A DNA stretch of 64,000 nucleotides from Balneolaceae bacterium (lineage in GTDB: Bacteria; Bacteroidota; Rhodothermia; Balneolales; Balneolaceae), in contig JAFIFB010000007.1 in the NCBI GenBank assembly GCA_020832285.1, positions 1-64,000 on the forward strand. The letters run 5' to 3'. A program made the translations under genes and the position numbers. The notes beneath the pieces were generated by a model. It made no database searches, was not told where the DNA came from, and saw nothing but the letters and a program-made list of their open reading frames with translations. Shown piece by piece: positions 9,362-32,978 of this stretch (the stretch's first letter is position 1; every line of letters begins with the position of its first letter).

Positions 9362-10801
9362 GTGGAATTTAATAGAAGAAATTTTTTAAAGTTAACCGGT
9401 TTAACCGGCATGGGAATTGTTTTTGGAGCAAATAGAGCAGAGTCGAACAGACCTTATCATAAAAGCCGAACTCAAACCTTTAATATGCATGGTTATGCAG
9501 CTCCAAAACTGGATACGGTCCGAATGGGCTTTATCGGGCTTGGGGATCGCGGATGGGGAAATGTGAACAGATTTGCAAGTATTGAAGGTGTAGATGTAAA
9601 AGCATTGTGTGACATCGTTCCTCACCGTGTCCATTCTTCCATCGAGTTTCTGCAAACACACCTTCCACATCACAATCCGGATGCCTATACAGACGGACCC
9701 GAAGCCTGGAAACAACTATGCGAACGAGACGATATCGACCTGATCTGTATATCCACCCCCTGGAATCAACATGCGGAACAATCCATTTTTTCAATGGAGC
9801 ATGACAAACATGTCTATGTAGACCTGCCTGTTGGTGTAACTGCTGAAGAGTGCTGGGCAGTTGTGGAGACCTCAGAAAAAACCCGTAAACATGTTCATAT
9901 GGACTGTGTGAGCTGCCATACCGGCACACTTGCAACCTTACTGAATATGGTGCGGCAAGGATATTTTGGAGAGATCCTTCACGGTGAAGGGCATTATGCA
10001 CATGACAGGGTTTCAAATACGGAGGGAAGATGGAGACGTGATCCTGATAATAACTACTGGTTCGGGTTCCGTCCCTGGCGTTTACAGGAGAATGTCAATA
10101 GAAATGGGAACCTCTATCCGGCCCATGGACTGGGTCCTGTTTCTCAAATGATGGGCCTGAATTATGGAGATCAGATGGATTATATGGTATCGATTTCCAG
10201 CGATGACTTTACCATGGCCGACAAAATGAAAGAAATTGCGGAAATGGATGAGTATTACAGGCCGTATGTTGGGCTTGAATTCAGAGGGAATATGAATACA
10301 ACCATCATACGAACAAAAAAGGGCCGCACCCTTATGCTCCAGCATGACATAAGTTCACCGGGAATCGGCCAGCGTTTTGATGTCATTCGCGGCAATAAAG
10401 GAATGTATAAAGGTAGTCCGGACAGGATTTCCACCATAGAAGACGGATTGGTCCAGGGTGAAGAATTTGATGCACTCACAGAACAGTATACACCCAGAAT
10501 CACAAAAGTTTTTAATGAAAAGCGAAGTCAGGCTACCACTGATTTTTCTGATGCAGGCATCTATTCCACCGTTACACCTGAAGACTGGCGTTTGATCGAC
10601 TCTCTTCGAAACGGACTTCCGACCGAAATGAATGTGTACGATGCTGCACTGTGGAGTGTCATTTCCCCTCTGAGTGAGTGGTCTGTCGTACGCGAAGGCA
10701 ATACAGTGAAAATTCCCGATTTTACTGCAGGAGCATGGAAGACCAATAAACGGGGAATGGACGTATCACTCCGGGAAGGCGGCACAACAAATCTGTTATA
10801 A
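9362..10801 (+). CDS. Tat-exported GH109-like Gfo/Idh/MocA protein, paralogue 1
   Basis: 479 residues starting at GTG; this start gives the Tat motif NRRNFLKLTG at once. A Rossmann NAD-binding motif lies at FIGLGDRG (57-64) and the GNLYPAHGLGP segment at 249-259. The overall pattern (EECW, YGDQMDY, DVYDAALWSVISPLSEW, VPDFTAG-like end) is that of GH109, a family that cleaves alpha-GalNAc linkages with bound NAD through transient oxidation. It differs at two family positions: Asp154 replaces the Glu of the (V/I)E(I/L)P segment, and SCH (184-186) stands where classical members have a CY pair. Its real substrate may therefore differ. It diverges from susC and is convergent with nagB. Confidence 0.78.
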   Translation: MEFNRRNFLKLTGLTGMGIVFGANRAESNRPYHKSRTQTFNMHGYAAPKLDTVRMGFIGLGDRGWGNVNRFASIEGVDVKALCDIVPHRVHSSIEFLQTHLPHHNPDAYTDGPEAWKQLCERDDIDLICISTPWNQHAEQSIFSMEHDKHVYVDLPVGVTAEECWAVVETSEKTRKHVHMDCVSCHTGTLATLLNMVRQGYFGEILHGEGHYAHDRVSNTEGRWRRDPDNNYWFGFRPWRLQENVNRNGNLYPAHGLGPVSQMMGLNYGDQMDYMVSISSDDFTMADKMKEIAEMDEYYRPYVGLEFRGNMNTTIIRTKKGRTLMLQHDISSPGIGQRFDVIRGNKGMYKGSPDRISTIEDGLVQGEEFDALTEQYTPRITKVFNEKRSQATTDFSDAGIYSTVTPEDWRLIDSLRNGLPTEMNVYDAALWSVISPLSEWSVVREGNTVKIPDFTAGAWKTNKRGMDVSLREGGTTNLL

Positions 10802-11112: not shown

Positions 11113-11859
11113 CTATTTCACACCTGAAAGCAACGACGCCGAATCCCTGTCGAGGTACACCGTACAATTCTGATGTGTCTGCAAAATGGAAGCAGGATGA
11201 ATGTTTGAGACGTCTCCTTCCAGGCATTCCTGTACCGCTTTGGCTTTTCTTTTATCCGGAACCGAACAGATGATACTGCCTGATTTTAAAATCTGCTTAA
11301 TCGACATGCTGATCGCCTTATTGGGCACATCCTCAAAGGTTTCAAACCAGCCCTCTCCCATCTGCTGCCTTCGGCAAGCTTCATCCAGCTCAACCACGAT
11401 ATAAGGCTCTTCGGTATCGAAATCAGCGGGAGGATCATTAAAAGCAAGGTGTCCGTTTTCTCCGATACCAACCAGTGCCACATCAATCGGGTGCTGTTTT
11501 ATGATTTCATTTAACCGTTTACACTCTGCCTCTGTATCTTCGGCATCTCCTTTGATAAAATGAACTGCTTTTGAGCTCCCGACTTTATCAACAAACCGCT
11601 CCTTCAGGTATTTTCTGAAACTTGCAGGATGCTGGTCCGACATGCCCACATACTCATCCAGGTGAAACATAACTACCTTTGACCAATCGATTCCTTCGGC
11701 GGAGACAAGGTTTTTCAACGTTTCAAACTGACTCGCACCTGTGGCAAGTATAATGTTCGCTGTTCCTTTCTTTTTGATGGAATCCTTAATTTTCTTTTCA
11801 GCATCTTGTGCTGATTTTACTCCTAATTCTTCTTTTGAATCAAAAACTTCAACATTCAT
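11113..11859 (-). CDS. nagB: Glucosamine-6-phosphate deaminase
   Basis: 248 residues, the usual NagB length. It converts glucosamine 6-phosphate to fructose 6-phosphate and ammonia in the cytosol. Visible motifs are LATGASQ (38-44), the catalytic HLDEY (66-70) and [13 protein letters not shown] (131-143). Shorter 6-phosphogluconolactonase relatives lack this full set. It follows nagA on the same strand after 188 bases and closes the minus-strand series. Together with nagA it feeds N-acetylglucosamine into glycolysis. Confidence 0.9.
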
Positions 11860-12047: not shown

Positions 12048-13364
12048 TTATCGACTGTAAATCACATTTCCACCGATGATTGTTTTTTCCACAAGAATAT
12101 CGTCATCGAAAATCACAATATCTGCATCTTTTCCCGCTACCAAAGAGCCTTTTTTGTCGTTGATATTCATAATCGAGGCCGGAGTTGCCGTCATCATTCT
12201 GACCGCTTCCGTGAGCGGAACATCAGCCATATTGATCATGGTCCGGACAAGGCGGTCGGTCGTGGCAACACTTCCGGCGAAAGAGGTCCGATCAGGCAGT
12301 TTGGCCACTCCATCTTCGATGATCACTTCCAGTCCATCATCCCGGGGGCCTAAAATACTGTCACCTTCAGGCATTCCAGCTCCGCGCATGGCGTCCGTGA
12401 CAAGCGCAATTCGGTCCGGACCTTTGATTTTGTAGATCAGCTTCAGCAAAGATGCGGGCAAATGTTTACCATCTGCAATAATTTCCACACTCATTTCATC
12501 AATAAGAAATGCACTTTCCACACCTCCGGCGTACCGATAGGCATCTCTTCGGGTTACACCAAGCATCCCTGAATAGAGGTGTGTAGCCAGCGTGTACCCA
12601 TTTTCAAATCCGGTTAACACTTCCTCATATATCGCACTGGTATGCCCCATGGAAGGCAGCACCCCTTGTGACACCAAATATCGTGCAAACTCAAGAGCTC
12701 CCTCTCTCTCCGGGGCCGAATCCCACCGCTTGATGGCCGAACTGTGAGAAAGAATTTCTTTGTATTCCTCCGGGTCCGGGTCGCGTATAAACCGCGGATC
12801 CTGGGCACCCCGCTGCTCCATGGAATAATAGGGCCCTTCCAGAAAGATTCCCTGAAACTGTGCACCGAAATCATTCTGCAGTGTTGCTTCTTCGTAGATA
12901 TCCAGGTTTTCGAGTAATGTTTGTACATCGCCGGAGAGAGCCGTTGGATACATCGATGTGGTTCCGTGACTTGCATGCGTTTCTGCAGCTCTCAAAAACG
13001 CATTCACATCCCCATCCAGAAAGTCGTGATCGCCACCTCCATGAACATGGAGGTCTACAAATCCCGGAGCAATATACAGTCCATTAGCATCGATCTCTTC
13101 CGCGCCGGACACATCGATGTTTCCTTCCCGAACTTCTGTAATGATTCCGTCAACCGCTACAACTGTTCCATTTTTAATTGTTCGGTATGGAGTTATGATC
13201 TGTCCATTGAAAATTTTCAATGTCCTTCCCTCTTTCACAGATACAGACGGCTTTTTGGCAGAAGCAGGCTGTGTTAAAAAAGGTAGAGCGCTACCCGCGC
13301 CGGCAGCAATCGATAGGGTTCCAAGATTCTGAAGAAATTCTCTGCGATTTTGGTTTTTCGGCAT
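12048..13364 (-). CDS. nagA: N-acetylglucosamine-6-phosphate deacetylase with a Tat signal
   Basis: 438 residues. The enzyme part carries NagA motifs: HVHGG (106-110), the metal Glu in FLEGPYY (Glu176), GHTSA (His241), ATHLYSG (His262) and LVTDAMRGAG with catalytic Asp325. NagA removes acetate from GlcNAc-6-P, and some members also act on GalNAc-6-P. What is odd is the N-terminus: NRREFLQNLG followed by a hydrophobic stretch and an APFL...PASA-like cut region, a full Tat signal. Since amino-sugar phosphates are normally cytosolic, either the protein really is exported and acts on a different N-acetyl substrate, or the leader is not functional. It lies between the Nramp-like permease and nagB. 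Confidence 0.82.
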   Translation of the reverse strand: MPKNQNRREFLQNLGTLSIAAGAGSALPFLTQPASAKKPSVSVKEGRTLKIFNGQIITPYRTIKNGTVVAVDGIITEVREGNIDVSGAEEIDANGLYIAPGFVDLHVHGGGDHDFLDGDVNAFLRAAETHASHGTTSMYPTALSGDVQTLLENLDIYEEATLQNDFGAQFQGIFLEGPYYSMEQRGAQDPRFIRDPDPEEYKEILSHSSAIKRWDSAPEREGALEFARYLVSQGVLPSMGHTSAIYEEVLTGFENGYTLATHLYSGMLGVTRRDAYRYAGGVESAFLIDEMSVEIIADGKHLPASLLKLIYKIKGPDRIALVTDAMRGAGMPEGDSILGPRDDGLEVIIEDGVAKLPDRTSFAGSVATTDRLVRTMINMADVPLTEAVRMMTATPASIMNINDKKGSLVAGKDADIVIFDDDILVEKTIIGGNVIYSR

Positions 13365-13452: not shown

Positions 13453-14751
13453 TTACATAAATCCGCGAATTGCAAAATAGCTGGTTACAAGAGAAAAAAT
13501 GATCACGGAAATCAATCCGAAATTCCAAAGCCGGGATGGCATGTACTTCTCTTCGCGCATCAGCTCTTTTTTATTCAGTAAATAATAGATGGGAAATGCC
13601 ACAGCCGGTAAAATAAAGGCCATCAAAGCCATCGCAACTACCATCAGAACAGGTGGAGTCTGTTCTAAAAATACAGAACCAAAAGCGAACAACAATCCTG
13701 TGACTATACAAAAACGAAACAGCGGCGATTTCAAATCTCGCTCCCATCCCAAATAATCGGCAATAAGCCAGGGGGCAATTAACGCAATCGGGAACATGGT
13801 TGACAAACCCGCTCCTGCAACTCCGATTATCAATATAAATGCTGCAACTTCACCTCCGATTGGCTCCAGAAGCTGAATCATTTCAATCGTATTTTCCATC
13901 GTTAATCCCATCACATGCAGTGTGCCGGCACCAACGGCCATCACAACTGCACTCAGAAACACCATGACTGATACCGAAACCATGGCATCGCGCTTTTCAT
14001 GCTTCAGGTGTGTGATGTCCCATCCCTTTTCAGAGACGATGATACTCCTCATCAAAAATACTACTGCGGAACAGGTTGTTCCAGCCATAGCCGCAACAAT
14101 CCGGTAGGCTCCGGGTTCATCCGGAATACCCGGAACCATTCCGGTAAAGATTTCACTATAGGATGGGCTTACCATAAAAAATACAACAACAAAACAGAAG
14201 ACCAGCAGGAGTACGAATCCGGTTAATATTCTTTCAAAGAATTTATATTTACCAAACCACAACGCAGAAAAAATTAACAAAGTGAGAACAGAAATAATCC
14301 AAACGGTATCGATCACATGTTCGCTGCTTTCCGGCGCCACCGTAAGCCGCGCCCCTTCCTGAAGTAATTCCGAAACGATACCCATAATGGACGACAGGGC
14401 CAGCAACTCCGTAAAAATCATAGCCAACAGACAGTAAAAAGCTATGAGTTTTCCTACTTTTGGTATCTGAGTTTTGAAATTGTATAGTGCTGTATTCCCC
14501 GTCACCAATGCCAGATGACCATACGCCACCATCAACACATAAGTAAAAATACCGGACAGAAGCAGCGCCCATAAGAGGGTCATACTGTACTGAGCACCCG
14601 CCATTGCCATAGTGGTAATACTGCCGGTCCCGATATTATAACCGATCAAAAAGAGTCCAGGCCCAACAGCACTTAGTGCAAGAATAACTTTTCTCGACAG
14701 TGTTTTTGGCTTTTCTTTTTCATCCGCACCTTTGTATATCGATTCATCCAT
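13453..14751 (-). CDS. Nramp-related membrane permease without metal-binding motifs
   Basis: 432 residues with about eleven hydrophobic segments in the Nramp/LeuT-like layout. The first segment reads AVGPGLFLIGYNIGTGS, matching the Nramp TM1 region but without the DPGN metal site. The segment equivalent to TM6 reads TTCSAVVFLMRSIIV, without the MPH motif. Known Nramp metal transporters need both, so this is probably not a divalent-metal importer. It is 88 bases upstream of nagA on the same strand and downstream of a GH109-like gene. A role in moving a sugar, amino sugar or organic product fits that context but is inference. Confidence 0.65.
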   Translation of the reverse strand: MDESIYKGADEKEKPKTLSRKVILALSAVGPGLFLIGYNIGTGSITTMAMAGAQYSMTLLWALLLSGIFTYVLMVAYGHLALVTGNTALYNFKTQIPKVGKLIAFYCLLAMIFTELLALSSIMGIVSELLQEGARLTVAPESSEHVIDTVWIISVLTLLIFSALWFGKYKFFERILTGFVLLLVFCFVVVFFMVSPSYSEIFTGMVPGIPDEPGAYRIVAAMAGTTCSAVVFLMRSIIVSEKGWDITHLKHEKRDAMVSVSVMVFLSAVVMAVGAGTLHVMGLTMENTIEMIQLLEPIGGEVAAFILIIGVAGAGLSTMFPIALIAPWLIADYLGWERDLKSPLFRFCIVTGLLFAFGSVFLEQTPPVLMVVAMALMAFILPAVAFPIYYLLNKKELMREEKYMPSRLWNFGLISVIIFSLVTSYFAIRGFM

Positions 14752-14961: not shown

Positions 14962-16362
14962 CTAAATAATCCTTGTATTTCCGCCTTCGGCGATTTCGAT
15001 ATCCATTCCGGGCTGGTTGGTTTCCCAGGCACCGTTTGTAAAATCGGGAACGTCCACAAAGGCACGGTTGGCAACCGAATATTCACTCAACGGAATAATT
15101 GCACTCCAAAGGGCTGCATCGTACACATCCATATCGAGCGGCAACCCATTCCGGAGGCAGTCGATCAAGCGCCAGTCCATCAATGTATCCATGCCGCCGT
15201 GGCCGCCTACTTCTCTGGCCAATTCCCCAACCCTTCGGGTTATTTCCGGTGTAAATTCTTCTTCAAGCTGTTCAAACTCTTCCTCACTAAGCCATCCGTC
15301 GTGGCTGGTAGCTACTCTTGCCGGCAGTGGCCATTTTTGTGCAATACCTTCTGTACCGCTAATCAGGTGAATTCTGGAATATGGGCGAGGTGATGTTGTA
15401 TCATGCTGAAGCATAATCGTGCGCCCTTTGTGAGTTTTTATGATGCTTGTGTTGATATTACCGCGAAAATTTCCTCCCGCGTAAGGCTCCCAGAACTCTT
15501 CGGTTTCAGCCAGCTTTTCAGCCATCGGCCCTATCATAAAATCATGGCTCGAAATCGATACCATATGATCCATCCGGTCGCCATAGTTAATATTCATAGC
15601 CTGTGCAATCGGACCAAGCCCGTGCATCGGATAAAGGTTGCCGTCTCTATCCATGTTTTCATGCAGTCGCCAGGTTGTCAGCTCTTTATTAAAGATTCTG
15701 GCCAGCCTGTCGTGAATATAAGCCCCTTCCCCGTGAATAATTTCACCGAAAAACCCCGCTCTTGCCATGTTCAGGGTTACCATTTCAAAAAAATCATAGC
15801 AGGTATTTTCCAGCATCATACAATGCTTTCGGGTACGCTCGGAGGTTTCCACAAGTTGCCAGCACTCCTCAATGGTTTGTGCAGCCGGTATTTCTATAGC
15901 CACATGCTTATCGCGTTCCATTGAAAAAACGGCCTGTGGAGTATGCAGGTGCCATGGAGTGCAAATATAAATCAAATCAATGTCATCCCTCTCGCAGAGA
16001 TCCTTCCATGCATCTTCACTTCCTGCATAAATCTCAGGATTATGAGGTGTGCCCTCCAGCATTTCAGCAGCCTGGTTCGTCTGATCTGTAACCAAATCAC
16101 AAAGTGCCCGGATTTCCACACCTTCAATGCGCGTTAATCGTCTTAATGCACCAGTCCCCCGTCCGCCCAAACCGATCAACCCGATCCGAACCGTTTCCAG
16201 CGGAGGAGCCGCAAACCCGTGCATGTTAAAAACCTGTTCATGGTTATCTGAAAATGGATGATTCCCACCAGATCCGGACGAACAGCCCAACAAACCGGCA
16301 CCGGCCAATCCGAGGCCGGCAAAACCGGTAAGTTTCAAAAAGTCTCTGCGATTTGTACTCAT
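14962..16362 (-). CDS. Tat-exported GH109-like Gfo/Idh/MocA protein, paralogue 2 (canonical type)
   Basis: 466 residues. NRRDFLKLTG starts the Tat signal, and GLLGCSSG gives a lipobox at Cys27, suggesting a Tat-lipoprotein. It has a Rossmann motif GLIGLGGRGTG (61-71), Glu157 in AIEIPAA, ENTCYDFF (185-192), NLYPMHGLGP (242-251), GGHGGMD (386-392) and a C-terminal VPDFTNGAWE. These match the characterised GH109 alpha-N-acetylgalactosaminidase I remember from Elizabethkingia better than three of the other paralogues do. It starts 26 bases after the large esterase gene, with which it is probably cotranscribed. Confidence 0.85.
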   Translation of the reverse strand: MSTNRRDFLKLTGFAGLGLAGAGLLGCSSGSGGNHPFSDNHEQVFNMHGFAAPPLETVRIGLIGLGGRGTGALRRLTRIEGVEIRALCDLVTDQTNQAAEMLEGTPHNPEIYAGSEDAWKDLCERDDIDLIYICTPWHLHTPQAVFSMERDKHVAIEIPAAQTIEECWQLVETSERTRKHCMMLENTCYDFFEMVTLNMARAGFFGEIIHGEGAYIHDRLARIFNKELTTWRLHENMDRDGNLYPMHGLGPIAQAMNINYGDRMDHMVSISSHDFMIGPMAEKLAETEEFWEPYAGGNFRGNINTSIIKTHKGRTIMLQHDTTSPRPYSRIHLISGTEGIAQKWPLPARVATSHDGWLSEEEFEQLEEEFTPEITRRVGELAREVGGHGGMDTLMDWRLIDCLRNGLPLDMDVYDAALWSAIIPLSEYSVANRAFVDVPDFTNGAWETNQPGMDIEIAEGGNTRII

Positions 16363-16388: not shown

Positions 16389-18473
16389 TTATTTAGTTAG
16401 AAATTCTGTTTGCCCGGAGCTCTGAATTTTATTCCTCAATGTTTCAAATTCAGAATAATAGGCTTGCTGGAGATCCTCATCAAGAGCCCTGCCAGACATT
16501 GTCACCGGATTGATGAACGTGACATCTGTATTGCTCATACCTGCTGCAAGTGAAACATCACCCCAGCCAAGAAACCCCGGAAGATGCACAGCCATGGAAA
16601 AAAAGTTTATATGCTCCCGATCATCAAACAGGTAAGATACCGGGGCATCCCGCAAGGTTATATGCGAAAATTTCGTTACCCCAAGAGCGGAGGAAAAAAG
16701 AGCAGCAATTCCGGTTTCACGAATTCCATCTGCTTGTATTTGATCTGCATGTAAGTTAGTATAAAGAAAATCTCTAATCAGGTTCAACTCCCGGACCCAT
16801 TCACCCATCAGCGTTCTTCCCAGCCAGAGGTTACTTCTGGAAAGAGTGTGAAAACGGGCAATATTGTGATGGGCTGTACTCTCAGAGAGTGTATTTTCAC
16901 CCATTCCGGAAAGATCTGCCAATACAATACCAAACCTTTTTTCCGCCCATTCTTTAATTATCTCATCAGGTATGGCACTTTTTCCTTCAGGGTGAGTGAT
17001 GATCACATACTTCTCAGAGCTGCCAGTTGGCGGAAGGTAGAGCAACGGAACTATTTTATTGTTACTGCCCTTCAAAACAACCCGTTTCCATTCATTTATG
17101 ACTGAATAATGGTACACTTCCATTAATTCTGTTTCGCCGGTTCGCAAAATTTCTTTTAACTGTTCCTGCTTCTCGGAAATATCAAACTCATTTATACTTA
17201 GAAAATCTGACCGAAGCTCTTCTCCAATCATTCGATTATACTCAGCCGTACTTTTCACTCCTTCAAATCTTTCATCAGGATAAACCAGCAGGTCTTCCTC
17301 AGGAACTGTATTAAATGGAGTTTCTTCTTTGAGCCGGCCATCACCCTCTCCTTTCAGATGCAGATCGAACCACCCGATCATTCCTTCCCTGTTTTCCTGA
17401 AAATAACCGTGTGTCAGATCGAAGAAATCGTAAGATATCTTATCACCGGCACCGTGTAACTCATATAAAGGCTTCACATTTCTGTAGGTACGCAACATTT
17501 CTTCGGGGAAAAATGCAGGATTCGATTCTTCGGTATGATTGTGCATTTTTAGTGCTCTCGGTGCCATAAGTCCCAGTACTCCAGATGCTTCTGTGTGTAT
17601 CAAACCATCAACCAGGACTTCGCAAATGCAGTTATGGCCCAAAACATAAGACTCAAAAGTACCCACACTCACAACAGGAACAGCAGCTTTAATTCGATCA
17701 TCGATCGCTGCAAGCCACATAACTTGATTTCCGCCGCCGCTTGCACCGGTTGCACCAATATTACCAGAATCTACATACGATAGTGAAGCGAGATAGTCTA
17801 CACCTCTCATATTATCGGAAACCTGGATACCCAGCAGAGTTCTGCCGATATTCATCAAAGATGCACCGAGATTCCCGCCGTGATATTCAAATTCACCAAA
17901 ATTAGTTGTTCTTTCGCCAGCTCCCCATGGGTCCATCACAAGAGCAACATAACCATTCTGAGCCAGAGCATGGCCAATCGGCTGTCCTTCCAGTTTGCCG
18001 CTTTCCCAATGGCCCAGCATCACAATAACAGCCGGAAATGGCCCGTCTCCATCAGGAATGAATAAGTTTGATGTTGCATAAACTCCGGGAAGCGATTGAA
18101 AAGCAATATTTTTGATGCTGTAGCCTTCAAGAGTTATCGCCGCAGTTTCCTGCACGTCAAAAGGCAGATCAGGATCTACCAATTCTATACCTGCTGATTC
18201 TATTATCGCGTTCCTGATATCGTTCCGCTTTATTTCCCAATCTTCTAAATCATCAGGCAGCTGGTTGATACTGAACCGGGCAGCCGCTTCTGCTTTTATA
18301 AACAGATCGAGCAGATCTTGCCGGTCTGTAAATACAGAAGGAAGGCTATCGGAAGAAATTATTTCCGAATTTATTGAAGCCCGAGTCGTGACACTTGAAG
18401 TTAATCCTGAAGCACTGTCTTGAAAAAAAAGGAGGCTCAGAATAACATAGAAGAAGGATTTTCTAATAAACAT
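16389..18473 (-). CDS. Large secreted alpha/beta-hydrolase, acetylxylan esterase-like
   Basis: 694 residues with a signal peptide. The first half has an alpha/beta-hydrolase domain: strand-rich LPGVYATSNLFIPDG, then the nucleophile elbow GASGGG (Ser245) and an acid/base region around residues 330-360 (HGAGDKISYDFFDLTHGYF). The second half, from about residue 470 (KYVIITHPEG), looks like another alpha/beta-hydrolase core, but its expected elbow is replaced by TGIAALFSSALG with no GxSxG. The second domain may therefore be non-catalytic. Deacetylation of a glycan is a likely role, unproven. It sits between two GH109-like genes on the same strand. Confidence 0.7.
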   Translation of the reverse strand: MFIRKSFFYVILSLLFFQDSASGLTSSVTTRASINSEIISSDSLPSVFTDRQDLLDLFIKAEAAARFSINQLPDDLEDWEIKRNDIRNAIIESAGIELVDPDLPFDVQETAAITLEGYSIKNIAFQSLPGVYATSNLFIPDGDGPFPAVIVMLGHWESGKLEGQPIGHALAQNGYVALVMDPWGAGERTTNFGEFEYHGGNLGASLMNIGRTLLGIQVSDNMRGVDYLASLSYVDSGNIGATGASGGGNQVMWLAAIDDRIKAAVPVVSVGTFESYVLGHNCICEVLVDGLIHTEASGVLGLMAPRALKMHNHTEESNPAFFPEEMLRTYRNVKPLYELHGAGDKISYDFFDLTHGYFQENREGMIGWFDLHLKGEGDGRLKEETPFNTVPEEDLLVYPDERFEGVKSTAEYNRMIGEELRSDFLSINEFDISEKQEQLKEILRTGETELMEVYHYSVINEWKRVVLKGSNNKIVPLLYLPPTGSSEKYVIITHPEGKSAIPDEIIKEWAEKRFGIVLADLSGMGENTLSESTAHHNIARFHTLSRSNLWLGRTLMGEWVRELNLIRDFLYTNLHADQIQADGIRETGIAALFSSALGVTKFSHITLRDAPVSYLFDDREHINFFSMAVHLPGFLGWGDVSLAAGMSNTDVTFINPVTMSGRALDEDLQQAYYSEFETLRNKIQSSGQTEFLTK

Positions 18474-18598: not shown

Positions 18599-20047
18599 TT
18601 ACAACAACCTTGTTGTGCCTCCGCCCTTGCCCAGGGTTACATCCAGGCCGTATTCGTTGGTTTTCCAATTGCCGGCTGTAAAATCGGGTACCGAAACGGA
18701 GTTAGAACGGTTGACCACCGACCATTCTGTAAGCGGGGTGATGGCACTCCAAAGGGCTGCATCATATACATCCATCTCCAGCGGAAGCCCGTTGCGGAGA
18801 CAGTCAATCAGCCTCCAGTCAATCGCATCAACCCGGGCATAACCCCGAAGTTGTTCACGTTCTCTGTCTTCTGATTGCTGAACCAGTTCATCAAATCTTC
18901 TGGTCATCTCGGGAGTATATTCTTCTACCAGTTCATTGAATTCTTCTTCCGGCAGCCATCCGCCATCTTCCGTGGCAAAACGGGCAGGTGCCGGGGCGTG
19001 CTGTGCAATGCCTTTGGTACCGCTGATCAACTGAAACCGTGAACCCGGCCTTGGTGTGCTGATATCGTGCTGAAGCATAATCGTACGGCCATTTTTGGTA
19101 CGGATGACCGTTACATTCATATTGCCCCGAAATTTCTTCCCAACGTACGGCTCAAAATAATCGTCCTCTTCGGCAAGCTTTTCCATCAGCGGAGCCATCG
19201 TAAAATCATCGCTGGATACCGATACCAGGTAATCCATCTGATCGCCATAGTTGAGCTTCAGCATCTGAGATAGCGGAGTCAGCCCGTGCTGAGGATACAG
19301 ATTCCCATCCCTTGCCACATTTTCATCCAGCCTCCAGGGGCGGTACCCGAACCAGCCGTGCTCATCACGAACCCATCGACTTGGATTGGATACCCGGTCG
19401 TGCACGTAATTTCCTTCGGCGTGTACCAAGTCTCCCAAAAACCCTTTCCGGGCCATATTCAGCGTCACGGCGTTGAGTCCGCTGTGGCCGGAGGCCGACA
19501 TCAGTGCACAGTGTTTGCGGGTGCGTTCGGAGGTCTCCACCAGCTCCCAGCACTGCTCGATGGAGGTGGCCGCGGGTATCTCTACATACACATGCTTGCC
19601 GTGTTCCATCGAAAAAATACACTGTTCTCCGTGCAGGTGCCAGGGTGTGGCAATGTAGATCAGGTCGAGGTCATCGCGCTCACACATTCGCTTCCAGTCT
19701 TCCGGCCCGTCGGTATATATATCAGGGTCATGCTGTGGAAACCCGCTGATCGCCTCGATAGTCTCATGCACACGATCCGGCACGGTATCACACAACGCTT
19801 TAATTTCAACACCCTCAACTCCGGCCAGGCGGCGGGTCATGCCCGAACCCCTGCTGCCGATGCCTACCAACCCTATACGAACAGTTTCGAGCGCCGGGGC
19901 GGCATAGCCGTGCATATTGAATTCCTGTTTTCGGTTTCGGCGATAAGGATCGCTGGCTTGCGATTCGGCAATCAGCTTGCTTGCACCGGTCAGACCGAGC
20001 CCTGCAAGGCTGATCTGTTTTAAAAATGTTCTGCGGTTATTACCCAT
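18599..20047 (-). CDS. Tat-exported GH109-like Gfo/Idh/MocA protein, paralogue 3
   Basis: 482 residues. Tat motif NRRTFLKQIS, Rossmann motif GLVGIGSRGSG (59-69), VEIPAATSIEQCW, GNLYPQHGL (248-256), DVYDAALWSAITPLTEW and VPDFTAGNWK. At the family CY position it has SGH (186-188). It shares with paralogue 1 the segment HDRVSN followed by W-F-G-Y-R-P-W-R-L, so these two form a subgroup. An acidic insert near residue 400 (QSEDREREQLRGYARVDAID) replaces the GGHGGMD of the canonical copies. It lies 125 bases upstream of the large esterase gene. Confidence 0.8.
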   Translation of the reverse strand: MGNNRRTFLKQISLAGLGLTGASKLIAESQASDPYRRNRKQEFNMHGYAAPALETVRIGLVGIGSRGSGMTRRLAGVEGVEIKALCDTVPDRVHETIEAISGFPQHDPDIYTDGPEDWKRMCERDDLDLIYIATPWHLHGEQCIFSMEHGKHVYVEIPAATSIEQCWELVETSERTRKHCALMSASGHSGLNAVTLNMARKGFLGDLVHAEGNYVHDRVSNPSRWVRDEHGWFGYRPWRLDENVARDGNLYPQHGLTPLSQMLKLNYGDQMDYLVSVSSDDFTMAPLMEKLAEEDDYFEPYVGKKFRGNMNVTVIRTKNGRTIMLQHDISTPRPGSRFQLISGTKGIAQHAPAPARFATEDGGWLPEEEFNELVEEYTPEMTRRFDELVQQSEDREREQLRGYARVDAIDWRLIDCLRNGLPLEMDVYDAALWSAITPLTEWSVVNRSNSVSVPDFTAGNWKTNEYGLDVTLGKGGGTTRLL

Positions 20048-28841: not shown

Positions 28842-30269
28842 TTAAATGATTTGAGTAGTTCCACCGCGTTCCAGATTGATATCCATTCCCGGCTCATTTG
28901 TTTCCCAGGAACCCGAGGTAAAATCGGGTACTTCCAGCTTTTCGAATGTGTTATTGGTAGACCATTCGGAAAGAGGGCCGATCGCACTCCACAAGGCAGC
29001 ATCGTAAACGTCCATATCCAACGGCAGACCATTGCGAATGCAGTCGATCATTCTCCAGTCCATAATAGTATCCATTCCGCCATGGCCGCCAACCTGCCGG
29101 GCCATTTCACCCACTTGTTTGGTGATTTCCGGGGTATACTGCTCTTCCAGTTCTGCAAACTCTTCGTCTGATAACCAGTCGTGATGACTTGTGGCAATTC
29201 GGGCAGGAAGAGGCCATTTTCGGGCAATTCCTTTGGTTCCGCTGAGAAGGTGAATCCGCGAATAGGGGCGCGGTGAGGTTACATCATGCTGCAGCATAAT
29301 GGTTCGTCCTTTTCTGGTTTTGATCAGTGTGGTATTCATATTTCCCCTGAAATTACTGCCCACAAACGGTTCAAAAACTTCATCTTCCTGAGCCAGCTCT
29401 CTGGCTTTATCCGCCATCATAAAATCGTGACTCGACATGGAAACGAGATAGTCCATTTTGTCGCCGCTGTTGATATTCATTGCCTTGGAAACCGGGCCGA
29501 TACTGTGCGGCGGATAGATGTTTCCATTTCGATTGGCATTTTCTTTGAGACGCCACATATCATGGTATGCAGTTTTGGAGAAATTGAGTCCCATCAGGTC
29601 GTGAATGTAGGCACCTTCTCCGTGAATAAGTTCACCAAAAAAGCCCTGGCGAGCCATGTTCAGGGTTACCATCTCAAAAAAATCGTAACAGACATTTCCG
29701 AGCATCATACAGTGTTTGCGGGTTTTTTCGGACGTTTCCACAAGCTGCCAGCACTCCTCGATGGTAACAGCTGCGGGCAATTCCGTCGCCACATGGCAAT
29801 CGCTCTCCATTGCATAAACCGCCTGTGGAGTGTGCAGATGCCATGGCGTACAAATATAGACAAGATCAACATCATCACTATCGCACATACGTTTCCAGTC
29901 TTCCGGCCCGTCGGTATATGCCTGGGGGGAATGATCAGTGCCTTCAAGAATTTCCATAGCTGAATCGATATTTTCCGGAACCACGTCAGACAGAGCCGTT
30001 ATCTGCACACCTTCTATTCGTGATAAACGTCTGACTGCACCACGGCCGCGGCTTCCCACTCCGGTTATACCAACCCGAACTGTCTCCAGTGCAGGGGCTG
30101 CATAACCTGACATGTTGAACGTTTGGTCGTGCGTTAGACGAAAGGGGCTGTTACCATCCCTGTTTCCGCTGCTGCTTGCGCCTGCGTTACAGCCGGTTAA
30201 AAATCCTGCACCGGCTATACCGGCTAATCCTGTTACTTTTAAAAAATCTTTTCGGTTAAACGAACCCAT
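28842..30269 (-). CDS. Tat-exported GH109-like Gfo/Idh/MocA protein, paralogue 4
   Basis: 475 residues. The leader is NRKDFLKVTG (RK form) with FLTGC (Cys27) as a possible lipobox. The Rossmann motif is GITGVGSRGRG (67-77). It has TELPAAVTIEECW, GNVCYDFFEM (191-200) with the family Tyr195 but Gly in place of the usual Glu, YPPHSIGP (252-259) where the usual HG is HS, and GGHGGMD. It groups with paralogue 2. The gene begins 42 bases after an amidohydrolase and is followed closely by the GMC oxidoreductase. Confidence 0.82.
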   Translation of the reverse strand: MGSFNRKDFLKVTGLAGIAGAGFLTGCNAGASSSGNRDGNSPFRLTHDQTFNMSGYAAPALETVRVGITGVGSRGRGAVRRLSRIEGVQITALSDVVPENIDSAMEILEGTDHSPQAYTDGPEDWKRMCDSDDVDLVYICTPWHLHTPQAVYAMESDCHVATELPAAVTIEECWQLVETSEKTRKHCMMLGNVCYDFFEMVTLNMARQGFFGELIHGEGAYIHDLMGLNFSKTAYHDMWRLKENANRNGNIYPPHSIGPVSKAMNINSGDKMDYLVSMSSHDFMMADKARELAQEDEVFEPFVGSNFRGNMNTTLIKTRKGRTIMLQHDVTSPRPYSRIHLLSGTKGIARKWPLPARIATSHHDWLSDEEFAELEEQYTPEITKQVGEMARQVGGHGGMDTIMDWRMIDCIRNGLPLDMDVYDAALWSAIGPLSEWSTNNTFEKLEVPDFTSGSWETNEPGMDINLERGGTTQII

Positions 30270-31553: not shown

Positions 31554-32978
31554 TTACAGAATCCGGGTGGTTCCGCCACCCCATTCAAGCTGCACATCCA
31601 TGCCTCGCTCGTTGGTTTCCCAGGCTCCATTTGTAAAATCGGGAACCGAAACCGAATTTGACCGATTTGCAACCGACCATTCACTCAACGGTGTAATGGC
31701 ACTCGATGCAGCTGAATCATACACATCAATGTCCACCGGCAGACCGTTTCGCAGGCTGTCAATCAAGCGCCAGTCCATTGCGTTGACTCTCTCGTAAGAC
31801 CGCTGTGTCCGCCCGGGCTCTTGTGCCCTCGTCATCAGTTCATTGAAACGTTTGTTGATTTCCGGTGTGTACTCCTCCACAAGTGCATCGTACTCTTCTT
31901 GCGGAATCCACCCATCATTATAACTGAAGCCGATCCGGCTTGGCCTTGCATGGAATGCTCCTTTGGTTCCGCTGATCAAATCGAACCGGATAGCTGGGCG
32001 GGGAGTGGTTACATCATGCTGAAGCATCATCGTTTTTCCTTTTCGGGTGCGAACAATACTGGTGTTCAGATTTCCTCGATAGTCTCTTCCCACATATGGC
32101 TCCCAAAATTCATCTTCCGCAGCCAATTCTTTCGCTCGTTCGGCCATCAAAAAATCATTGGTTGAGGTAGAAACCATATAATCCATCTGATCACCGTAGT
32201 TGATATCCATCATCTGCATAACCGGAACAAGTCCGTGCTGAGGATACAGATTACCGTGCCTTCCGATATTCTCATTCAGGCGCCAGAGATTATGATACAT
32301 GTGCTTGGTGAAGTTATAATCATTCATCAAATCGTGAATGTAGGAGCCTTCACCGTGAATAACCTCTCCAAAAACTCCGTGTCTTACCATATTTAGCACC
32401 ACAGCCGAGATTCCACCGTGACACGATGCAGACATCTGTACAAAGTGCTGCCGGGTATTTTCGGAAGTTTCAACAAGCTGCCAGCACTCTTCGATGGTAT
32501 TGGCGGCGGGAAGTTCACAATAAACGTGTTTGCCATGCTCCATTGCATAAACCGCCTGCTCTACATGGAGATGCCAGGGCGTCTGGATAGCAATCAGGTC
32601 AATATCATCACGTTCACACATTCGTTTCCAGTCGTTTTCATCGCGGTAATATCCGTCCGGGCTCTGTGTGTCAGAAATCCCGTCAATTGCGGCCTTCACC
32701 CGATCCTCTTCAACATCATTAATGGCTTTAATCTCAACGCCCTCAAGACTTGCCAAACGTCTTACCGTTCCTGAACCTCTGTTCCCAATTCCGGTTAATC
32801 CTACACGAACTACATCAAGAGCCGGTGCTGAATAGCCGTGCATATTGAATCTTTGGCGACGTTTTATTTCAAACGGTTCTTTGTTTTTATCTTCTTTAGA
32901 CGAGCCTAATACTCCGCCTACCAAACCTATACCGGCCATACCGGATTTCTTCAGAAAGTCCCTGCGATTGCTTTTCAT
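31554..32978 (-). CDS. Tat-exported GH109-like Gfo/Idh/MocA protein, paralogue 5
   Basis: 474 residues. Tat motif NRRDFLKKSG, Rossmann motif GLTGIGNRGSG (60-70), CELPAANTIEECW, GNLYPQHGL (242-250), YGDQMDYMVS and VPDFTNGAWE. At the family CY position it has SCH (185-187), and near the C-terminus it carries an inserted ARAQ/ERVNAMDWR type of segment instead of GGHGGMD. It is therefore a third flavour between the canonical copies and paralogues 1 and 3. It is the first gene of the minus-strand series and diverges from agaS. Confidence 0.8.
   Translation of the reverse strand: MKSNRRDFLKKSGMAGIGLVGGVLGSSKEDKNKEPFEIKRRQRFNMHGYSAPALDVVRVGLTGIGNRGSGTVRRLASLEGVEIKAINDVEEDRVKAAIDGISDTQSPDGYYRDENDWKRMCERDDIDLIAIQTPWHLHVEQAVYAMEHGKHVYCELPAANTIEECWQLVETSENTRQHFVQMSASCHGGISAVVLNMVRHGVFGEVIHGEGSYIHDLMNDYNFTKHMYHNLWRLNENIGRHGNLYPQHGLVPVMQMMDINYGDQMDYMVSTSTNDFLMAERAKELAAEDEFWEPYVGRDYRGNLNTSIVRTRKGKTMMLQHDVTTPRPAIRFDLISGTKGAFHARPSRIGFSYNDGWIPQEEYDALVEEYTPEINKRFNELMTRAQEPGRTQRSYERVNAMDWRLIDSLRNGLPVDIDVYDSAASSAITPLSEWSVANRSNSVSVPDFTNGAWETNERGMDVQLEWGGGTTRIL

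Follow-up and report, generated by a model that had tools for sequence, protein, structure and literature searches.

A clade of Nramp-related permeases lacking the metal-site motifs lies in sugar operons of Bacteroidota and may import sugars

A stretch of 64,000 nucleotides of contig JAFIFB010000007.1 (positions 1 to 64,000 of the forward strand) from a Balneolaceae bacterium, assembly GCA_020832285.1, was analysed and is termed the window here. An Nramp-related permease gene is located in this window within a run of genes for putative amino-sugar and glycan enzymes (Table 1). Genes were called by a longest-ORF rule, and export signals and membrane segments were assigned by simple in-house pattern rules. 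A preliminary description of this DNA had placed the permease right before nagA, and this position was confirmed: the NagA gene starts 88 bp downstream and is followed by the NagB-type gene. The NagA homologue scored 255.1 bits with TIGR00221, for which the cut-off is 225.65 bits, and the NagB-type protein remained under the cut-off of TIGR00502 (169.1 versus 236.9 bits). The solved GH109 structures matching the protein encoded directly upstream of the permease were 6t2b (GH109 protein 2; E 1.4e-92) and 2ixa (an alpha-N-acetylgalactosaminidase; E 3.5e-65). Five GH109-like Gfo/Idh/MocA proteins of one cluster, most with a twin-arginine signal, are encoded within ~24 kb of the window (9362-10801, 14962-16362, 18599-20047, 28842-30269 and 31554-32978). 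An Rfam scan of the window produced 0 matches, and no pxpABC genes were found near the permease gene in the ORF list and Pfam matches of the window.

Table 1. Permease locus of the window: features, positions and the evidence for each
Feature	Position	Strand	Evidence or remark
NagB-type glucosamine-phosphate deaminase/isomerase family protein, without export signal	11113..11859	-	PF01182 E 9.7e-22; 2bkv E 6.4e-42
NagA-family deacetylase, twin-arginine export signal	12048..13364	-	TIGR00221 above cut-off; solved NagA chains E 1.9e-48
Twin-arginine motif RREFL of the NagA-family protein (NRREFLQ near the N-terminus)	13332..13346	-	Translation
Nramp-related permease, 'GTGS' clade	13453..14751	-	432 aa, ATG start, 11 predicted membrane segments (hydropathy count)
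Codon R235, invariant in 75/75 clade members; His in E. coli MntH and 8/8 PxpT-like proteins	14047..14049	-	Alignment
Codons S228-A229-V230, opposite MPH	14062..14070	-	Alignment
Codons G41-T42-G43-S44, opposite DPGN of metal carriers	14620..14631	-	Alignment with E. coli MntH and 75 clade members
GH109-type alpha-N-acetylgalactosaminidase-like protein, twin-arginine signal, directly upstream of the permease	14962..16362	-	PF21252 E 1.1e-40
Acetyl-xylan-esterase-like alpha/beta hydrolase, same gene run	16389..18473	-	PF05448 E 9.6e-9
Second GH109-type protein, twin-arginine signal, same run	18599..20047	-	PF21252 E 2.5e-34

Residues 45 to 401 of the permease matched PF01566 (Nramp) with an E value of 4.6e-53 and a score of 181 bits, relative to a gathering cut-off of 29.8 bits, and the profile alignment to Nramp chains with solved structures covered nearly the full length of the protein. 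The closest solved chain was 7qia (E 4.2e-15 with the single sequence and 4.8e-39 by profile), which corresponds to EleNRMT; this protein is an Nramp-related Mg transporter (PMC8806188). Among the NCBIfam models, the only cut-off passed was that of the loose model NF037982, Nramp_1 (65.9 versus 50 bits; best stretch, residues 30 to 245), whose equivalog name, 'Nramp family divalent metal transporter', is a label and no test of function. Scores for MntH (64.2 versus 430 bits) and nramp (20.2 versus 272.5 bits) were below the cut-offs of these models. An AlphaFold2 prediction with a four-sequence input, consisting of the window protein and three relatives, had a mean pLDDT of 34.5 and a pTM of 0.24, values too low for the model to be of use.

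The register of the metal site was obtained from an alignment of 92 family members with E. coli MntH, from which ORFs of <380 aa were left out, and the same register was found in the profile alignment to the DraNramp/MntH and EleNRMT chains. The window permease resembles the canonical MntH/Nramp/DMT1 (SLC11) proteins in its nearly full-length match to PF01566 but differs in lacking both of their motifs, as the preliminary description had claimed: GTGS (residues 41 to 44) replaces DPGN in TM1, and SAV (residues 228 to 230) replaces MPH in TM6. The two strings quoted in that description, GPGLFLIGYNIG and VVFLMRSIIV, do occur in the protein, at residues 30 to 41 and 230 to 239, but they adjoin the metal site rather than forming it. 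The Mn ligands of DraNramp are given as D56, N59 and M230 together with the carbonyls of A53 and A227 (PMC10185341), and none of the three side-chain ligands is present in the aligned permease. The motif of the NRMT group is DxxG in TM1 with TxxA/T in TM6 (PMC8806188); the permease has GxxS and no Asp in TM1, and its TM6 half is NRMT-like (T225, with S228 similar). By the group motifs of that paper, GTGS and SAV thus set the protein apart in sequence from canonical Nramps, NRATs and NRMTs.

These features were shared by a set of relatives, here named the GTGS clade, defined by GTGS at positions 41 to 44, R235, D332 and a clade profile score of >370 bits; the window permease has all of these, with a score of 641 bits. 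The profile was built from the first 21 relatives and gave 372 to 647 bits for 74 of the 75 members and no more than 190 bits for the other Nramp-family ORFs at hand. The remaining member, an E. coli copy from a broken record (CP054241), could be scored only in two parts, with 220 and 215 bits; this frame-broken copy, split into two ORFs, was substituted by an unbroken copy from another genome (L205), which falls within the clade in the tree. The TM1 positions were G, T, G and S in all 75 members, and the position of the Met of MPH was occupied by A (36), S (22), G (12) or F (5) and never by Met. As all 75 members share this ligand loss, it is not a chance event. D332 was likewise invariant, in contrast to Gly in MntH and Gly or Ser in PxpT-like proteins. 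R235 is positioned opposite H237 of DraNramp, an inner-gate residue (PMC10185341). No claim is made for R235 as an anion binder in the substrate pocket, given this inner-gate position and its presence in the amino-sugar subclade too.

In order to be read correctly, the counts require a description of the sample. The 75 loci comprise two from the window genome, three further sets of 19, 13 and 40, and the E. coli locus L205. Every clade match was fetched in the searches of the order, class and phylum. From the search of the family of genome G342, which we infer to be the Flavobacteriaceae, 44 of 92 match rows (counted by eye) entered the set, and these were hand-picked along the score list and hence are a non-random sample. 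Three loci (L045-L047) duplicate L048-L050 and were excluded from all counts. A search of genome contigs with the single protein detected three loci with 99, 90 and 80% protein identity in metagenome-assembled genomes named Balneolaceae or Balneolales. Within the order, 39 of 128 genomes gave matches when the threshold was relaxed enough to admit other groups; at an E value of 1e-90, matches were present in 74 of 397 sampled genomes of the family of G342. No relative was found among 198 stretches when viral contigs were searched with the clade alignment. The window genome itself contains eight Nramp-family ORFs (10 profile matches), on contigs C76, C101, C13 (two), C62, C42, C97 and C70; the TM1 Asp is absent from all eight in the alignment, and no canonical Nramp was found in this genome.

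In the tree, the GTGS clade forms one side of a branch with an SH-aLRT value of 99, so that the placement in an Nramp tree proposed in the preliminary description puts the window permease inside one supported clade. The subclade of the window permease consists of 20 rows (SH-aLRT 100). The tree was generated by a quick search and without bootstrap, and the deeper order is unsure owing to long branches. Eight PxpT-like proteins were also separated by a branch with an SH-aLRT of 99, with the window permease outside their clade. PxpT and its relative YcsG (MntG) resemble the GTGS clade in being Nramp-related proteins without the TM1 Asp (GPGT in 8/8 sampled) whose genes belong consistently to an operon devoted to an organic solute, with pxpABC adjoining in 8/8 loci. 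They differ in having PYN after the TM6 break, where the GTGS clade has small residues, in the His at the R235 position and in their neighbourhoods (see below). PxpT was required for growth of Corynebacterium glutamicum on 5-oxoproline, with complementation, although its authors leave metals possible (PMC13274462), and YcsG, the Bacillus subtilis relative of PxpT with a G-motif, was reported to be a Mn importer that raises cell Mn (PMC10448178). All eight sampled PxpT-like loci of Bacteroidota (L067 and L128-L134) have the three 5-oxoprolinase genes, an observation that supports a 5-oxoproline role outside the Actinomycetota and Bacillota.

Nramp-related proteins without metal motifs have been described as diverse, paraphyletic and largely uncharacterised, with the metal-carrying Nramps arising inside them (PMC12873925), and a review of Slc11 treats them as an outgroup (PMC9606685). 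The former work, by Ray, Berry and Gaudet (2026), recognises 'G-motif' groups that lack the metal motifs and are uncharacterised except for MntG and NRMT; the GTGS clade shares this description and may be one of these groups, and the word 'sugar' was not found in the extract of this paper. According to a supplementary figure legend, alginolytic systems of Alteromonas sp. 76-1 include a gene labelled 'Nramp, metal-ion transporter' (PMC6431674). Like genes of the clade, it is drawn inside alginate operons, but its label is that of a metal carrier, and it may or may not be a clade member. A limited literature search found no proposal of sugar transport by such an Nramp-related protein. A non-metal Nramp-related protein has already been published in PxpT, and the clade in sugar operons is undescribed as far as these searches go.

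The gene neighbourhoods of the relatives were compared with those of 40 control regions of 17.3 kb; the latter were placed by seeded random choice on contigs from the genomes of these relatives, and one set of profiles was used for both. Within 8 kb, 50 of 75 clade loci had a core amino-sugar or alginate marker, compared to none of the 40 control regions and none of the eight PxpT-like loci. The Fisher value (P = 9e-14) overstates the case, because the markers were chosen after the loci had been seen and the rows are related, and is a guide only. Amino-sugar genes (NagA, NagB, GH20 or GH84) were found at 25 loci and uronate or alginate genes (KDPG aldolase, PfkB, PL7, PL6, PL17 or DGOK) at 26, with one locus having both types; a phosphomannose-isomerase-like gene was found at four loci, a CoA transferase at three and none of these markers at 20. 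The marker-free loci include five of the 20 in the subclade of the window permease (L050-L054), plus L048, which is at a contig end. The SusC label (c2) was assigned from inspection and gene order and is outside the core marker count. With the marker-free loci left out, the context labels follow the tree to the extent that six changes suffice.

Several recurrent arrangements were observed. In one alginate pattern, the order was GntR regulator, MFS carrier, short-chain dehydrogenase, PfkB and PFK kinases, KDPG aldolase and permease, often with a PL7 lyase and SusD (L122-L124, L181-L183, L187-L189 and others); a second pattern contained PL6, PL7, PL17, a cupin and a 6-phosphogluconate-dehydrogenase-like protein (L126 and L195-L200). 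In seven Balneolaceae genomes, genes for a TonB receptor, GH2, GH20, a TIM-barrel isomerase and NagB accompany a permease ~40% identical to that of the window. An SSF symporter is present in five of these seven loci and absent from L055, which is cut before NagB, and from L060. In one Balneolaceae genome, genes of a pxpABC cluster lie just upstream of such a locus (L061:1-2040), perhaps by chance.

Within the subclade of the window permease, the gene order was examined at 12 Flavobacteriaceae loci. In 11 of these, nagA is directly upstream of the permease gene, and nagB is directly downstream in nine; in the twelfth, NagB is directly upstream. Gaps between genes in these nagA-permease-nagB operons lie between -62 and 224 bp, and the majority are <20 bp. 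Two Gfo/Idh/MocA genes precede eight of the loci, three of these with a 3-keto-disaccharide hydrolase, and the 11 genomes involved have three to six NagB-domain proteins each. The order in the window and in L049 is GH109-like, permease, NagA and NagB, and L048 ends at its contig. As the window has permease-nagA-nagB and the Flavobacteriaceae nagA-permease-nagB, the idea of a conserved window gene order was dropped. The loci L050-L054 have neither nagA nor nagB.

These arrangements bear on the possibility that the permease carries an organic solute other than the amino sugar itself; examples would be an N-acetylated sugar, a sugar acid or a different compound produced by the GH109/Gfo enzymes. 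Such a substrate would fit the sister subclades with alginate/uronate or CoA-transferase genes, the invariance of R235 across all subclades and the five subclade loci without nagA and nagB, which keep a GH109-like gene nearby in four cases and an Amidohydro_2 gene in one. As NagA and/or NagB adjoin or follow the permease gene in 14 of 20 subclade loci, a solute of this kind is rather unlikely, if not very much so, for the window permease.

The predicted compartments of the neighbouring enzymes were then considered. All of the NagA homologues of 13 operons have an export signal, which is of the twin-arginine type in the window and L049 and Sec-like in 11, nine of these being assigned by rule and two (L168 and L172) by eye and only if the start is an internal Met. 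Twin-arginine signals were present in the Gfo partners (8/8 and 8/8) and GH109-like proteins (7/7). Export signals were absent from 19 of 20 NagB proteins, 12 of 13 KDPG aldolases and all 12 TIM-barrel isomerases. This distribution indicates that the cutting and deacetylating enzymes are outside and the sugar-finishing enzymes inside. In 46 of 67 gene runs of at least three genes, including 11 of 12 Flavobacteriaceae subclade runs, the permease is the sole polytopic protein; the other 21 encode a further polytopic protein as well, in many cases an SSF or MFS carrier. It is mainly the split of the enzymes across the membrane and the frequency of runs with a sole polytopic protein that suggest the permease as the transport step. 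As NagA is exported and NagB is not, the permease is placed at the step at which an amino sugar, once deacetylated, would pass through the inner membrane.

A role in export, in sensing as a transceptor or in the carriage of by-products such as ammonium or acetate, rather than in import of the pathway substrate, would be compatible with the data in that these fix no direction of transport and the additional polytopic protein in 21 runs is a possible importer. Such a role is highly improbable, given the runs in which no second polytopic protein is encoded and the need for a link between enzymes on either side of the membrane.

Import of a sugar by the permease would be one step in the following route. 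Exported GH109-type and other Gfo/Idh/MocA enzymes would release N-acetylhexosamines from glycans, and deacetylation of these sugars by the exported NagA-family enzyme would follow in the periplasm. The permease would carry the deacetylated product inward, where the NagB-type enzyme would use it as a cytoplasmic substrate; any phosphate required would come from a sugar kinase with its gene elsewhere. NagB-family enzymes are known to act on 6-phosphates, and the product of a periplasmic NagA would carry none. An exported NagA should not encounter a cytoplasmic 6-phosphate, so the substrate of the carrier should be an unphosphorylated, deacetylated sugar, and, if NagB needs a phosphate, a kinase must act after import, which is a weak point of the scheme. 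The window genome has five matches to the ROK family. Exported NagA-family deacetylases (window:12048-13364, L049 and L165-L175), many of them beside twin-arginine Gfo/Idh/MocA enzymes, were a feature in their own right and make a periplasmic, oxidative amino-sugar route possible.

An alternative with respect to the family is that the permease has remained a carrier of a divalent metal (Mg, Mn or other), bound through other ligands, and supplies those enzymes of the operon that depend on metals. Sugar kinases, isomerases and NagA are enzymes with a metal requirement, the protein scores as a member of the Nramp family, and its closest solved chain is a Mg carrier. A G-motif relative, YcsG, is also a reported Mn importer (PMC10448178). 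EleNRMT resembles the clade as its best solved relative and in the Thr at the TM6 TxxA position; it lacks Asn and Met but keeps the metal-binding Asp (DAGG), mutation of which strongly compromised transport (PMC8806188), and this Asp is absent from all 75 clade members. The contexts, moreover, track sugars (amino sugar, alginate and CoA-linked acid) through the six label changes on the tree and not any one metal enzyme. A metal substrate is, hence, unlikely. Metal supply for NagA in particular was disfavoured, as the homologue is exported in 13/13 operons and import of a metal into the cytoplasm would not serve it.

The combined evidence suggests, with moderate confidence, that the window permease, as an Nramp-family secondary carrier in the inner membrane, does not carry metal and takes up a sugar, the best candidate being a deacetylated amino sugar or a keto derivative. 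Points against a sugar substrate include the 20 of 75 loci that are marker-free, the passing of Nramp_1 and the report of Mn import by YcsG (PMC10448178). The proposal of the preliminary description, that the permease may carry an organic solute and belong to an Nramp branch that has received little study, is supported on comparative grounds by the ligand loss in 75/75 members, the supported clade, the sugar operons and the gene order, and it has a precedent in PxpT (PMC13274462). Sister groups of this subclade would perhaps do likewise for alginate-derived uronates and other sugar acids. With little more than even confidence, the proposal may be extended to the whole GTGS clade, with its TM1 GTGS and invariant TM6 Arg: these proteins would serve as dedicated importers of sugars and sugar acids and fill a gap at the inner membrane in many glycan operons of Bacteroidota. 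Amino sugars, alginate uronates and CoA-activated acids would each have their own subclades, and one in ten chromosomes of the E. coli collection encodes a member. If so, the Nramp fold would serve several classes of substrate, of which metal is just one, many glycan operons would gain their missing step, a wrong divalent-metal annotation would be corrected at scale, and a little-understood part of a well-known transporter family would obtain a testable job. As the metal Nramps arose within Nramp-related proteins (PMC12873925), a shift of the fold between organic solutes and metals would also become testable.

The E. coli member provides a genetically tractable host. A gene of the GTGS clade was present in 546 of 5,426 complete E. 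coli genomes, all with at least 99% identity and including records named O25b:H4-ST131, and its automatic annotation is that of a divalent-metal transporter. The gene lies in a cassette between dnaB and qorA (L205:5353-12340; NZ_AP018784.2) together with genes for a LacI-type regulator, a CoA transferase, an enoyl-CoA hydratase-like protein and an FAD-binding oxidoreductase. Two flavobacterial loci (L202 and L204) share the CoA transferase and hydratase clusters with this cassette, the content of which points to an acid or an acid-forming sugar as the probable substrate. In L135 (CP054241.1), labelled as an E. coli plasmid of 834 kb, the permease frame is broken, and 545 other genomes cover at least 80% of the gene; the presence of dnaB, alr and tyrB on this record suggests that it is a piece of chromosome.

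Other Nramp-related genes were observed during these analyses. In L171 (6746-9319), the GTGS permease gene is directly followed by a distant second Nramp-related gene (183.9 bits; TM1 GPGS), in a run downstream of nagA. Three long Nramp-related proteins of 562 to 575 aa have LGGGS at the TM1 site (L011:10338-12065, L013:6346-8034 and L014:6192-7916). ThuA-type genes are near all three, and Gfo/Idh/MocA or 3-keto-disaccharide-hydrolase genes are near two of them, making these proteins a second Nramp-related group in oxidative sugar loci.
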